Under the pieces are notes generated by a model. The model was not told the origin of the DNA, searched no databases, and saw only the letters and a program-made list of their open reading frames with translations. From Synechococcales cyanobacterium bin31.maxbin.ball.101 (GTDB lineage Bacteria > Cyanobacteriota > Cyanobacteriia > Leptolyngbyales > Leptolyngbyaceae), in assembly GCA_013298165.1 (NCBI GenBank), contig JAAFJU010000034.1:1-36746 (forward strand): a stretch of DNA of 36,746 nucleotides, read 5' to 3'. Shown one piece after another: positions 11,716 through 28,840 of the stretch (the stretch's first letter is position 1; each line of letters opens with the position of its first letter). The position numbers and the translations under genes are program-made.

Positions 11716-11862
11716 TTGGGCTTCGACTCCGCTCAGCCCCCGAAGATCTGGCTCAGTTCTTGAGAACTGTTGGTTTGATCCCAAGATGAGGGTTGAGCGG
11801 AGCCGAAACCCGGCTATGTTCTGATCCCAAGACGAGGGTTGAGCGGAGCCGAAACCCGCCTA
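11716..11862. repeat. Dispersed palindromic repeat, copy B, with internal 46-bp duplication
   Basis: It begins with GGGCTTCGACTCCGCTCA and contains GTTGAGCGGAGCCGAAACCC twice, once in each of two tandem 46-base units (from TGATCCCAAGA at 11776 and 11822). It matches copy A at 7212-7327, including GTTGGTTTGATCC. The element runs from just after the methyltransferase stop into the stop codon of the convergent DUF2330 gene: the TAG is read from CTA at 11860-11862. Confidence 0.8.
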
Positions 11863-13248
11863 TCTCACATAAGCGCGGAACCGATCGTACCAACTGACAT
11901 CCGCCAAATTCACAGAAGGAAGTTTCTTACGAATGTCTTCGATTTTCCAGCCTGTGAGTTTCGAGAGGGTTTGGGCTTCTTGGTCGAAGCGTTTTGGTAG
12001 GCTGGCGCGGTATTGTTTTCCGGCGTCGCAGTTGGTTTCGTTTAGGTAAGGATGCTGCATGATGTAGCGGCCTTGGAAGTTTTCTTGGTTATTGGTGTCT
12101 TGGAACATCAGGTCTTCGGGGAACTTGTCGCGGGTGTAACGGACATGCAGTCGAGTGATGAAGACGTTGGAACTTCTCGGCATGGGACGACGGCCACGGC
12201 CCCAGATTGAGTTTTGGGGCGGTTGGTTGGTGCCCATGGGTTGCTCTAGCCAGAAGACGCCTGCTTGCTTGAGTTCGTCGGGATTCAGTGGGTCGGCGGA
12301 GCAAGGATCGCAGTTGCCCATGTTCCAGGCGTACTCTAGGAAAGCGACGTTACGGTTTTCCCGATCGTAGCTGGTCGTAAACATGGATTTATAAAAGTTG
12401 CTGAATTCGCCTTTGACGTATTCGGGAATATTCACATCCGACGGAATGCGGACGGTGCGGTAGTTGGCGACTTCGGCGCGACCTTTGGGGGAGAGGATGT
12501 AGACGATGAGGTCCTGGGCATCTTGACCGTTGATCATGCCGAGACGGATAGGCAGCATGAAGCGTGGGGATTCGTAGGCGATTTGAATGGGACGGAGTTT
12601 GGTGAAGCCAGAGGTCTCAAATTTCTCTAGGTTGACTTTGGCAACGAAGAATTTGAGCTTTTGACGAATATAGGGTTTGAGCAAATCCCTTGCGCCGTTG
12701 GGAATTTTGTAGCCGCTTTCCTGAAGCCAGGTTTCGAGACCTCCGGATTCTTTGGCGCTTAAAATCACAATGTCATATTCGCCAACATTAAATTGCGCTT
12801 CGACTTCTACGCCTAGTGCGGAACCACGTGCGCGCTTCATCGCCTGAGGTGCGGCGGACGGTGCAACAGGCTGTGGCATCTCGAATCGATCGTATAGCTT
12901 CGGTGGATCGCAGGGATTTTCGTCGAAGTATTCTACGAGTCGGGGTGCGCTGAAGGCATCCAGGCGTTCCATGATGGCTGGGTTGGCGACTTTGACTTGC
13001 TCTTTGCTCAGCACGGTCGGAACAGGCACGACCATGGCAAAATCTTTGGCTTCGCCTTGGTAGTCGTTGGCCATGGTGAGAATGGTCCGATCGTCTGAAC
13101 GGGCGATCGCGACTTGGGAGGCTTTGTTATACAGTTTTGTATCAGCCTTGGCGACGTAGAACCCACAGAAGGCAAAGGCTGGCAATGTATTTGTAAATAC
13201 TAGAAGAATGGCTAGAAGTGAGGCGAAGAACGATCGGAGTAGTTTCAT
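11860..13248 (-). CDS. DUF2330-domain exported protein
   Basis: A 462-residue protein with a signal peptide (LLAILLVFTNTLPAFA, cut about residue 26) followed at once by CGFYVAKAD, the characteristic start of DUF2330. The domain continues with LYNKASQVAIAR, ILTMANDYQG and DFAMVVPVPTVL, then ENPCDPP. The central part has YDIVILSAKESGGLETWLQ and the C-terminal third has paired cysteines (GNCDPCSADP). No membrane segment other than the signal, so it is likely periplasmic or outer-surface. Function is unknown. It lies 24 bases downstream of the RnfD-like membrane protein gene on the same strand, so the two are probably cotranscribed. Confidence 0.85.
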   Translation of the reverse strand: MKLLRSFFASLLAILLVFTNTLPAFAFCGFYVAKADTKLYNKASQVAIARSDDRTILTMANDYQGEAKDFAMVVPVPTVLSKEQVKVANPAIMERLDAFSAPRLVEYFDENPCDPPKLYDRFEMPQPVAPSAAPQAMKRARGSALGVEVEAQFNVGEYDIVILSAKESGGLETWLQESGYKIPNGARDLLKPYIRQKLKFFVAKVNLEKFETSGFTKLRPIQIAYESPRFMLPIRLGMINGQDAQDLIVYILSPKGRAEVANYRTVRIPSDVNIPEYVKGEFSNFYKSMFTTSYDRENRNVAFLEYAWNMGNCDPCSADPLNPDELKQAGVFWLEQPMGTNQPPQNSIWGRGRRPMPRSSNVFITRLHVRYTRDKFPEDLMFQDTNNQENFQGRYIMQHPYLNETNCDAGKQYRASLPKRFDQEAQTLSKLTGWKIEDIRKKLPSVNLADVSWYDRFRAYVR

Positions 13249-13272
13249 GGCGATTACTAGAAAATAAATGAA

Positions 13273-14280
13273 CTAAACAGATTTGATGGCTGTGGGCTGG
13301 AACCAATCAAACCGATCGGCTTTAAAGACCCAGTCTAAAATCAATGTTAAAGGTGCTGATAAGAACAATGCAAAAAAGACAGCCGTGTTCATAAAGAAGT
13401 AATTTCTAAACACAAAGGTTAGAAGCGCGATCGTAAATGTCCAAATGAGTCGCGAGATTTTGGAATTGGGAATAGTGCGGGGGTCGGTAATCATAAAAAA
13501 TGAAAACATGATCAGTGAACCGCTCATCATGCGATGACTCCATACATCCCACGTCCAACCGAGATAGAGATTGCGTCCAGCTTCAAGGGCAAGGTAGAAG
13601 GCGAGAAAGGCGATCGTGGTGTCCCAGCGTCCGACCTTTCGTAGTACCAATCCACCACAGATAAAAAACAAGATGACATACCACATGGATTCTCCCCATT
13701 GACCTGGTGAAACCCAGGCTCCGTGACTGAAGAGAAGTGCGATGATAATGCCAAAGTTGCCGGGATTGAAAATATGTTTTTGATTGAATTGGATTAAAAA
13801 TTTAGATGAGATTGCGATCGTAACTGCCAATGCCATAATCCACCAATGTTCAACCCGAAGCAGGATGGACATGCCGAGGGCGGTGATCATGGGACTGTAG
13901 AAGGCGTCGATCGGCAGGTTATCTAAGAGTGATCCCCCTAAATCCCCCTTGGTAAGGGGGACTTTGAGGTTTTGAGAAGTATTGGGTGGTGGGGTGAACT
14001 TTAGGAAGAGGTATTGGGTGGTGAGGGCGGTGACGATCGCGGTGAGGATGATTTCGGGGTGGAGGGTCCAGTCGCGGGTGATGATGCCAAGGAGTAGGAA
14101 GAGGCTGAGGAACCCGATTTGGTAGAGGCGGGCGTCGATTCCCGCTCTTGGAGGCTGCGCTAACGATCGCATGTTAAGCATCATATGCAGGGGCCAAGGT
14201 AACGATGTTTGAATTATCGCGGTTGCGATCGGTTCTTCTGTGCTGGTTTCAGAAAATGAAACCTGTTGGAGAGCGGTCAT
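13273..14280 (-). CDS. Orphan RnfD/NqrB-like (UnbU-like) membrane protein
   Basis: A 335-residue polytopic membrane protein with about eight hydrophobic segments. FNPGNFGIIIAL (171-182), the Ser-Pro-Gly-Gln-Trp-Gly block near 191 and FFMITDPRTIPNS (261-273) match the NqrB/RnfD/UnbU family. I see no Ser-Gly-Ala-Thr flavin-attachment motif, so covalent FMN is doubtful. No other Rnf or Nqr subunit is nearby. Residues about 105-118 (LKVPLTKGDLGGSL), in a loop between segments, are encoded by a dispersed G/C-block repeat (13931-13970), an insertion not expected in the family. The next gene downstream encodes a DUF2330 exported protein, a likely partner. Electron-transfer function is only inferred. 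Confidence 0.8.
   Translation of the reverse strand: MTALQQVSFSETSTEEPIATAIIQTSLPWPLHMMLNMRSLAQPPRAGIDARLYQIGFLSLFLLLGIITRDWTLHPEIILTAIVTALTTQYLFLKFTPPPNTSQNLKVPLTKGDLGGSLLDNLPIDAFYSPMITALGMSILLRVEHWWIMALAVTIAISSKFLIQFNQKHIFNPGNFGIIIALLFSHGAWVSPGQWGESMWYVILFFICGGLVLRKVGRWDTTIAFLAFYLALEAGRNLYLGWTWDVWSHRMMSGSLIMFSFFMITDPRTIPNSKISRLIWTFTIALLTFVFRNYFFMNTAVFFALFLSAPLTLILDWVFKADRFDWFQPTAIKSV
13931..13970. repeat. G/C-block dispersed repeat within a coding sequence
   Basis: GATCCCCCTAAATCCCCCTT followed by GGTAAGGGGGACTTTGAGGT. The same core occurs at 28760-28794 upstream of the ClC gene. Here it lies in frame inside the RnfD-like gene and adds about 14 residues to a loop without breaking the frame. 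Confidence 0.8.
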
Positions 14281-14363: not shown

Positions 14364-15335
14364 ATGATATGGCTCAATCTAGGGCACGGTGTTGCTGGCT
14401 TTGCCTCGATCGCCACCTTTCTGGGATTTGCCGGAAACCTGTGGTGGAAGTTTGAACTGTTAGATCATCCTAGGCCGCAGTATTGTCTAGGGTTGCTGGT
14501 TGGTTTGTTAGTGGGGTTGGGTTTAGGACAAGCTTGGAGTCTCCTTTGGCTTTTGCCTCTGTTGGTGAATCTTCTCTTGTTAGCGCCCTTGTTTAGGGTG
14601 AAGTCGTTTGGGGTTAGACCGCGTGGCGATCGCGGTGATTCCTCATCTCTGCGATTACTGCATTCCAATCTCGATCGCCATAATCCCACTCCCGATCGAG
14701 CTATCCAATATCTCCGGGAACAACAGGTCGATTTACTGCTCCTTCAGGAAATTACTCCGGCTTGGCTGACTAGACTGGAATCCGAATTGCCGAACTATCA
14801 GCTTTTGAAGGCGGAGGCGTTTGATAATACGCTGGGTAGTGCTGTTTTGGTTGCTAAGCAGAATTCCCAGGTCAAGATTGAACAGATTCAAACCATTCAT
14901 TTGCCAGCCAATAGCGATCGGCCATTACTGGAAATCATTATCCAAACTGGGAATCGCACCGTGGCCATCCTTTGCTTCCACGTAATCCGCCCTCGCAGCA
15001 CGCAAACCTCCAACTACCAAATCACGGAATTTAATGCCGCTGCCGATTGGAGTCAGCGGCAATTACAGCAGGGTCGTGAGGTTGTCATTATTGGCGATTT
15101 CAACAGTACATTCTGGTCGCAGCGACTGCGTCAATTAGAAAGAGACAGCCAATTAATCAATTCCCAGCGAGGCTTTGGGTTTCAGCCCACTTGGTCAGCG
15201 CACTTTCCACCTTTAATGAAAATCGCGATCGATCATTGTTTTTATAGTCGGGGATTGCGCGTAGGTCAACGATCGATCGGTCCTGATATTGGTTCTGATC
15301 ATCACCCATTGTTGGTTGAACTCCGCACAATGTGA
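14364..15335 (+). CDS. Membrane-anchored endonuclease/exonuclease/phosphatase-family protein
   Basis: A 323-residue protein. Residues 1-78 hold three hydrophobic segments (about 9-27, 41-55, 58-77); the rest is the metal-dependent DNase I-like fold. Catalytic positions are visible: Asn102 in HSNLDRHN, Glu129 in LLLLQEI, His206 in LCFHVIRP, Asp245 and Asn247 in GDFNST, Asp290 in IDHCF, and Asp312-His313 in GSDHHPL. All key residues are intact. The family hydrolyses phosphodiesters or phosphomonoesters (DNA, phospholipids, inositol phosphates); with this architecture, similar to bacterial membrane-bound members, a lipid or extracellular DNA substrate is possible. It ends four bases before the convergent SH3 gene. 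Confidence 0.85.
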   Translation: MIWLNLGHGVAGFASIATFLGFAGNLWWKFELLDHPRPQYCLGLLVGLLVGLGLGQAWSLLWLLPLLVNLLLLAPLFRVKSFGVRPRGDRGDSSSLRLLHSNLDRHNPTPDRAIQYLREQQVDLLLLQEITPAWLTRLESELPNYQLLKAEAFDNTLGSAVLVAKQNSQVKIEQIQTIHLPANSDRPLLEIIIQTGNRTVAILCFHVIRPRSTQTSNYQITEFNAAADWSQRQLQQGREVVIIGDFNSTFWSQRLRQLERDSQLINSQRGFGFQPTWSAHFPPLMKIAIDHCFYSRGLRVGQRSIGPDIGSDHHPLLVELRTM

Positions 15336-28753: not shown

Positions 28754-28840
28754 ACCCGATCCCCCTAAATCCCCCTTAAAAAGGGGGACTTTGAAGTCAT
28801 TTCATGTTCCCCCTTTTTAAGGGGGCTAGGGGGATCGGGT
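28754..28840. repeat. Long imperfect palindrome of the G/C-block repeat family
   Basis: Left arm 28754-28789 starts ACCCGATCCCCCTAAATC, and the right arm 28806-28840 ends GGGGGCTAGGGGGATCGGGT; the arms are near-complementary over about 35 bases, with a 16-base loop. Related to the copy inside the RnfD-like gene. It follows ilvE and could form a very stable hairpin, acting as terminator for ilvE. It also supplies an ATG at 28804 in frame with the next gene. Confidence 0.85.

Follow-up and report, generated by a model that had tools for sequence, protein, structure and literature searches.

A conserved pair of an RnfD/NqrB-like membrane protein and an exported DUF2330 protein in Cyanobacteriota and other bacterial phyla

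The closest described relatives of the membrane protein studied here, R, are RnfD and NqrB, and in the parent complexes RnfG or NqrC docks on these subunits. The accessible text of two reports places the riboflavin of the parent proteins at the cytoplasmic side (PMC9325719, PMC10643135), and that of a third relates the folds of RnfD, AmtB and urea transporters (PMC9588780). Another source states, in its available part, that it found no nqr operon in Cyanobacteria (PMC4014512). A literature search returned no publications on DUF2330 (COG4402), the family of the exported protein D, and the accessible portions of the literature found on RnfD/NqrB in cyanobacteria do not describe the R-D pair. The pair is very probably an undescribed membrane device.

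The R-D locus and its distribution

The window, that is, the whole stretch of DNA analysed, comprises 36,746 nucleotides from a Synechococcales cyanobacterium. The sequence-only reading had described an RnfD-like protein followed 24 bases later by a DUF2330 exported protein, and the ORF coordinates agree, with both genes on the same strand (Table 1). They are transcribed in the order R, then D, and would form one operon, judging from spacing and conservation. Both matches exceed the Pfam cut-offs (27.7 bits for PF03116 and 24.7 bits for PF10092), which places D in DUF2330, and each is the only match of its family in the whole genome, so that there is no second PF03116 protein. None of the five scanned neighbours of the pair in the window is an Rnf/Nqr gene.

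Table 1. Positions of the R-D locus features within the window
Feature	Position	Strand	Description
R, RnfD/NqrB-like membrane protein	13273..14280	-	ORF 335 aa; PF03116 match 51.9 bits
D, exported DUF2330 protein	11860..13248	-	ORF 462 aa; PF10092 match 238 bits
R-D intergenic gap	13249..13272	-	24 bases; operon inferred from spacing and conservation
Palindromic genome repeat	13934..13965	+	In-frame insertion in the R TM2-TM3 loop

The palindromic repeat lies outside the conserved R-D unit.

In a scan of 339 cyanobacterial-phylum genomes, 64 of the 66 with a strong D also carry R, which argues that the pairing is not due to chance (hypergeometric P 1.4e-61 for the co-occurrence of strong D and PF03116, without phylogenetic correction). 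R lies directly upstream of D in 60 of the 64 genomes with both; no linkage of R to D is seen in Acaryochloris or in four genomes from a single cyanobacterial family (f6). In a broader scan, with about half of its loci outside Cyanobacteriota, R adjoins D in 77 of 80. Laboratory-type cyanobacteria also have the pair, for example Picosynechococcus sp. PCC 7117 (locus L108). The earlier reading had mentioned the same pairing in other cyanobacteria and proposed looking for a conserved neighbourhood; this proved correct, and the neighbourhood is conserved in further phyla as well. All seven strong D copies of Acidobacteriota adjoin R. Furthermore, the divergences of R and D are correlated (Mantel r 0.865, 71 pairs, 0/2000 permutations).

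Membership in DUF2330 does not by itself imply a partner. In Myxococcota 142 of 235 genomes contain the family, the highest copy number being 11, and among the 29 loci examined there, scored against the cyanobacterial D profile, R stands beside D in 10 of the 11 above 500 bits and in none of the 18 below 430 bits; for one Myxococcota D, R was not found within about 6 kb. Two cyanobacterial genomes (G129 and G229) likewise have a shorter DUF2330 protein without R. The idea that every DUF2330 protein pairs with R was rejected on the basis of these two genomes and the low-scoring Myxococcota loci. When the 976 ORFs of 80 loci were clustered, no further gene that looked linked to R and D was shared across phyla, and the remaining clusters with at least four loci were lineage-specific or mixed families. 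The R-D pair therefore appears self-contained, and conserved neighbours were rejected as a clue to function. Among the Rhodocyclaceae loci listed, a common context between ruv-type and tol-type genes was read from the sequence.

The membrane protein R

The match of R to PF03116 covers only the final part of the profile, positions 173-295 in the protein scan, and PF03116 was matched by 23 of 23 R relatives (E up to 0.01). The R ORF shows no conservation over its first ~48 residues, the conserved part beginning at Asp49, and 22 of 81 relatives begin at the conserved region, so that translation of R probably starts at one of the internal ATGs around codons 33-38. In the predicted model, R is a ten-helix RnfD/NqrB fold. 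When the R half of a natural R-D fusion (L096) was modelled, it matched RnfD (8rbq_D) with a Z of 23.7 over 254 aligned residues, followed by NqrB as the second parent fold (Z 21.5) and by AmtB and urea channels (Z about 11).

R shares with RnfD/NqrB the NP and TDP motifs and, at the riboflavin/Na+ site, an Asn and an Asp. By alignment, on which these site equivalences are based, N172 and D266 of R correspond to RnfD Asn124 and Asp248, and both are invariant in 81 of 81 R relatives; the Ser/Thr and Phe of the riboflavin site are kept as well. Unlike the parent proteins, R has His169 in place of NqrB Asn200, as matched by motif, and has a DUF2330 protein as its partner. A further difference is that the five-helix linker is absent from R in the alignment to RnfD chains, and with it the FMN site. 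A short, nearly invariant W.SPGQWG loop occupies its position instead, and of the 80 R relatives (81 examined) that show both motifs, 79 have an NP-to-QWG spacing of 20-26 residues. On this alignment, R lacks the FMN-carrying linker. None of the 81 relatives has [STD]GAT at the linker site, and the single occurrence of the motif falls at residue 49 of a 259-residue protein, ahead of that site, in keeping with the earlier observation that no SGAT flavin motif is visible in the RnfD-like protein. No ApbE flavin transferase was detected in the source genome, and ApbE is missing from 63 of the 64 paired cyanobacterial-phylum genomes, G001 being the exception. An Rnf-like electron wire was rejected as the main reading on account of the missing FMN linker and ApbE: since the outer flavin is missing, R-D would not be a complete electron wire. 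The retained riboflavin-site residues would still allow R to bind flavin and to play a partial redox role.

Could R instead be a transporter for a small solute, flavin-like or other, with D as its periplasmic receptor or lid? The relatedness of RnfD to AmtB and urea transporter folds and the retention of binding-pocket residues without a covalent cofactor are consistent with such a role. However, no neighbouring gene points to a solute, and the best structural match of D, the viral protein P35, is no known binding protein. We regard transport as quite unlikely.

The exported protein D

The signal peptide of D ends with AFA just before Phe27-Cys28, and the protein carries Cys28, Cys113, the CDPC motif at 313-316, and Cys407. 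Cys28 and CDPC are invariant across all 63 D proteins. One alternative reading is a redox pair, in which R would bind riboflavin, and perhaps a quinone, and exchange electrons or disulfide equivalents with the CDPC/Cys28 thiols of D, linking them to the membrane in a DsbB-like manner. Such an assignment gains from the riboflavin-site residues of R, the conserved thiols and the export of D. On the other hand, the FMN bridge to the outer side is missing together with ApbE, the riboflavin of the parent proteins sits at the cytoplasmic side, far from D, and R has no conserved Cys. Taken together, a redox pair is fairly unlikely, albeit the best placed of the alternatives to the preferred reading given below.

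No PDB chain matches the D profile at E up to 10, and the P35 Pfam family is not among the matches of D in a Pfam scan at E up to 1. At the structural level, the predicted model of D matches baculovirus P35, a caspase inhibitor of the P35 superfamily (MEROPS I50), with a Z of 10.8 over 218 aligned residues of the 281-residue chain (rmsd 4.6 Å), the next fold reaching only 5.9, and the modelled D half of fusion L096 matches P35 with a Z of 10.6. P35 is the top match in both structural libraries, with a probability of 0.96 in the viral library, although the Foldseek TM-scores are only 0.25-0.40. D is thus predicted to have a P35 fold. The likeness extends to a Cys near the predicted mature N-terminus and to a flexible, variable loop of 25-33 residues, in which R/K is present in 63 of 63 proteins. 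The differences from P35 are equally clear, in that D is an exported bacterial protein of ~10% identity to P35 with no sequence-level match, and its loop has no conserved bait site. The accessible text of the literature surveyed names no bacterial or cellular relative of P35.

The resemblance raises the question of whether R holds D at the membrane as a protease trap of the P35 kind. In favour, both libraries and the D half of the fusion give P35 as the best structural match, the predicted mature D has Cys at position 2, where P35 has a functional Cys2 according to the available part of its description (PMC7863939), and the D loop lies near the expected position of the P35 reactive loop, though an offset, and not a residue alignment, underlies the equivalences of loop and Cys2. 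Against a trap, the loop has no conserved site, and C14 peptidases (orthocaspases) were detected in only 59 of the 64 paired genomes, being absent from G001, G058, G083, G121 and G211. In addition, orthocaspases are mainly cytoplasmic, whereas D is exported. We consider a protease trap very unlikely. D as a dedicated partner of C14 peptidases was rejected as an obligate relationship in view of the same five genomes. Genome size confounds the presence of C14 in the other 59.

The R-D complex and its possible mechanism

R and D occur as single-frame fusions at four loci (L079, L096, L145 and L154), and at two more (L112 and L130) they share one frame with D incomplete. AlphaFold modelled a natural fusion as a single ordered body with a pLDDT of 85.9 and a pTM of 0.86, so that the interaction asked for in the sequence-only reading is predicted; with only 5 of the 101 alignment rows spanning both halves, the predicted arrangement rests mainly on AlphaFold itself. 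That R and D work as one device is very probable, because the pair stays together, sometimes fused, in many bacterial phyla, and we consider it highly likely that they are two subunits of one membrane complex. D would lie on the periplasmic side of R, on the face where RnfG/NqrC docks in the parent complexes, and probably takes the place of RnfG/NqrC. Like RnfG/NqrC, D is the exported partner of an RnfD-type protein; unlike them, it is predicted to fold like P35, has no known flavin site and matches no PDB chain by sequence. The two-protein system proposed earlier, with a membrane part and a periplasmic Cys-containing part, is thus supported by adjacency, by the fusions and by an exported D with invariant Cys28 and CDPC, while the redox or cofactor transfer suggested as its possible role stays hypothetical, the missing ApbE and FMN linker speaking against a full electron wire.

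What, then, might the complex do? We infer a ligand- or ion-gated function rather than a through-membrane flavin wire. R may act in the membrane as a channel or a sensor that binds a flavin or a cation, and its outer mouth would be capped by D sitting on the face of the W.SPGQWG loop. The state of D may open or close R through the conserved thiols Cys28 and CDPC or, alternatively, through a ligand or target held by the P35-like body and the exposed flexible loop. Gating of R by D, as a mechanism, is somewhat doubtful. As a whole, a two-subunit complex with R gated by D and no full electron wire is our best explanation, held tentatively at a little under an even chance. A bolder version is unlikely, in which an RnfD-type protein without a flavin wire is gated by an exported D of P35 fold and DUF2330 is the cellular source or sister of insect-virus P35, whose Cys2 chemistry and exposed loop would have been inherited from a bacterial envelope protein. 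If true, the P35-like fold of DUF2330 would provide a cellular relative for this viral inhibitor family.

These results suggest that the RnfD/NqrB module has been reused widely without covalent flavin, with an exported partner replacing RnfG/NqrC, in cyanobacteria and several other phyla. The R-D pair offers a natural test of the role of the module apart from flavin electron transfer, be it the passage of an ion, a flavin or a signal.

Another orphan RnfD-like domain, related to R, occurs either in fusion with FG-GAP/UnbV-ASPIC proteins or next to them, which suggests that the module may work with more than one kind of exported partner and that R might do no more than anchor D in the membrane or help it mature. 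N172, D266, S129 and K160 of R are polar, lie inside predicted helices and are invariant across phyla, which is more than an anchor needs, and a purely supporting role is about as improbable as transport. The FG-GAP/UnbV-ASPIC (CRTAC1-like) systems resemble the R-D pair in combining an FMN-less RnfD-like module (H..NP, QWG, TDP) with a large partner, and differ from it in that the FG-GAP partner is found in cis in Cyanobacteria and in trans in Acidobacteriota, in genomes without a strong DUF2330 protein.

Distribution of the gene pair

R, the orphan RnfD/NqrB-like membrane protein, matched the RnfD/NqrB family (PF03116) with 51.9 bits, chiefly in the C-terminal part of the profile, and the NCBIfam RnfD models scored it far under their cut-offs. 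D, the exported protein encoded after it, matched DUF2330 (PF10092) with 238 bits. Each family had a single match in the genome itself (356 contigs, 5.4 Mb). The palindromic repeat within the R frame occurs in at least 82 copies in this genome (47 forward, 35 reverse), and a reversed-pattern control gave 0.

Coordinates of the R-D pair and nearby features in the window
Feature	Position	Strand	Length	Remark
ORF R	14280..13273	minus	335 aa	
ORF D	13248..11860	minus	462 aa	24 bases after R
Endonuclease/exonuclease/phosphatase family gene	14364-15335			divergent; start 83 bases upstream of R ORF
Palindromic repeat	13934-13965			in frame inside R; codes part of TM2-TM3 loop
Palindromic repeat, second copy	28761-28792			

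A survey of the same 339 genomes of the cyanobacterial phylum for both families detected PF10092 in 71 genomes and PF03116 in 68. Leaving out five genomes with only a weak, partial DUF2330 (G010, G016, G026, G038, G044), 66 carried a strong D, and PF03116 was present in 64 of these. The sequence-only reading had pointed to the same pairing in other cyanobacteria, and the survey bore this out: R lies directly upstream of D on the same strand in 60 of the 64 genomes. In the other four, all of family f6, both genes are unlinked. In the two genomes with a strong D and no R (G129, G229), the DUF2330 protein is divergent and reduced in length. Of the four with PF03116 and no strong D, G016 has a true RnfD (333 bits), and the remaining three carry orphan fusions of a second type, described below.

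We also scanned genome contigs broadly, using eleven aligned R sequences as the query. Among the best 80 of 477 relatives, D adjoins R in 77 loci; one exception (L095) is a contig that ends inside R, and two are Acaryochloris genomes with D elsewhere. By record titles and genus names, these best 80 span Cyanobacteria, Tanganyikabacteria, Alpha-, Beta- and Gammaproteobacteria, Deltaproteobacteria/Myxococcota, Verrucomicrobia, Acidobacteria, Rokubacteria, Eisenbacteria and Bacteroidetes. D precedes R in Rhodocyclaceae (L070, L072, L073; a 188-residue ORF intervenes in L070) and in the myxococcal locus L165. Seven strong D copies occur in six of 149 Acidobacteriota genomes, with R beside all seven. 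DUF2330 is strongly expanded in Myxococcota (142 of 235 genomes), where a genome may have as many as 11 copies and a single contig often bears several. When 29 myxococcal loci were scored with the cyanobacterial D profile, R accompanied 10 of the 11 above 500 bits and none of the 18 below 430 bits; in the single exception above 500 bits, R was not found within about 6 kb of D. The R-D pair is real and widespread. Neighbour clustering found no third gene conserved beside it, and no sign that the endonuclease/exonuclease/phosphatase family gene is conserved there. D is tandemly duplicated behind a single R in L144, L010 and G068. One Acidobacteriota-group genome (G375; loci L157/L208) carries a cyanobacteria-type pair with 62-65% (D) and 50-58% (R) identity to cyanobacterial ones, either by joint transfer or through a misplaced contig.

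R and the FMN linker

The alignment of the R profile to RnfD chains is split into two blocks, and some 76 residues of 8ahx_D that lie between the blocks are skipped. According to PMC9588780, this stretch of RnfD holds the five-helix linker covering FMN. In its place R has a short loop, conserved among 81 R proteins at W189 (81), S191 (81), Q194 (80), W195 (80) and G196 (81). N172 and D266 are invariant in all 81, position 133 is always Thr or Ser, and His169, which corresponds to NqrB Asn200 by motif spacing, is His in 80. A manual count on a printed alignment pairs N172 with Asn124, and D266 with Asp248, of Clostridium tetanomorphum RnfD. A Na+ site is postulated at these two RnfD residues, with Asp248 also at riboflavin (PMC9588780). 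The riboflavin contacts of Vibrio NqrB are Thr162, Asn200, Asn203 and Asp346, according to PMC9325719 and PMC10643135.

ApbE, which covalent FMN requires, was found in 12 of the 339 genomes and in only one of the 64 paired ones (G001). This scarcity agrees with a survey that describes extracytosolic flavinylation as underrepresented in Cyanobacteria (PMC8238504). The missing linker, the rarity of ApbE and the retained N172 and D266 together indicate that R is, as judged from alignments and predicted folds, an RnfD-fold protein without covalent flavin that retains the inner site. R is an RnfD/NqrB-kind protein of new form.

D and its predicted P35-like fold

DUF2330 proteins of the D type have five conserved cysteines. 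Cys28 and the CDPC pair Cys313 and Cys316 are never lost in 63 aligned D proteins. Three Verrucomicrobia (L074, L087, L105) lack both Cys113 and Cys407, and no row that covers the two positions has lost just one of them; two of the 63 rows end before Cys407. This joint loss suggests a Cys113-Cys407 disulfide, which would leave Cys28 and CDPC over. The signal peptide would end at an AxA-like motif just before Phe27, making Cys28 position 2 of the mature protein.

The AlphaFold model of D (63 sequences) had a pLDDT of 81.7 and a pTM of 0.79. Its best PDB matches were baculovirus P35, a caspase inhibitor, with a Foldseek E of 5e-4 and probability of 1.00 at TM-scores of only 0.25 to 0.40. VIA-align gave Z 10.8 and rmsd 4.6 Å over 218 residues of the 281-residue chain, as against Z 5.9 for the second-ranked fold, the N-terminal parts of M1-type enzymes. 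P35 was again top in a viral structure library (E 4.3e-3, probability 0.96), and the D profile found no sequence match among PDB chains. D and P35 probably share a fold, homology and function lying beyond what the prediction shows. Caspase trapping by P35 depends on its reactive loop at Asp87 together with an N-terminal Cys2 (PMC7863939). At about the place of that loop, judged by residue offset only, D also has a loop; it is variable, rich in Ala, Pro, Ser and Arg, 25-33 residues long and low in model confidence, with Arg or Lys in all 63 proteins. We consider caspase inhibition by D unlikely.

A candidate R-D complex and a second partner type

R and D share one open frame in L079, L096, L145 and L154; L130 joins R to about three quarters of D, and the fused frame of L112 meets the contig end inside D. 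In the fused frames inspected for it, the signal-peptide-like helix of D is retained within the frame, so that processing there is possible. Across 71 pairs, R and D distances were correlated (Mantel r 0.865), as they were within 37 cyanobacterial loci (0.861) and 34 non-cyanobacterial loci including Tanganyikabacteria (0.763), with 0 of 2000 permutations reaching the value in each case. This correlation shows joint inheritance and by itself is no proof of contact. The natural fusion L096 (708 aa; 101 rows, 5 spanning both halves) was modelled with a pLDDT of 85.9 and a pTM of 0.86, and its D half matched P35 at Z 10.6. We estimate that, for one domain near 265 residues and another near 400, such a pTM would be hard to reach unless their relative placement was predicted.

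In Rnf, the periplasmic FMN subunit RnfG is weakly associated with the five-helix linker of RnfD, as PMC9588780 describes. D may occupy the place of RnfG on R. In our preferred reading, the two proteins form a gated or sensing complex, in which the inner site of R would bind a flavin or cation and D would cap R from outside, answering periplasmic conditions via its thiols, loop or ligand. The analysis shows the genes, their conservation, the predicted folds and the missing FMN linker and ApbE; the contact face, the ligand and the direction of signal or flow are inferred. As a device of unproven function, the pair may be more than an RnfD/NqrB variant. In literature mostly outside subscription journals, we found none naming DUF2330 or COG4402, and no description of the pair in the accessible work on RnfD/NqrB and cyanobacteria.

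A second orphan RnfD-like type carries the same H..NP, QWG and TDP marks as R. In three cyanobacteria it is fused to FG-GAP/UnbV-ASPIC (CRTAC1-like) domains, with UnbV-ASPIC confirmed in G062, FG-GAP confirmed in the partial frame of G199, and the partial G053 assigned by similarity. Within a group of seven Acidobacteriota genomes, Pfam placed FG-GAP/UnbV-ASPIC genes beside it in L194, L196, L198 and L199, and no such neighbour was confirmed in L195, L197 and L200. RnfD-like modules lacking the FMN site therefore have partners of at least two kinds. Its loci are L065, L066, L067 and L194-L200; in L065 and L067 an ORF lies directly upstream of the fusion, with a weak, below-cut-off acetyltransferase match in L065.
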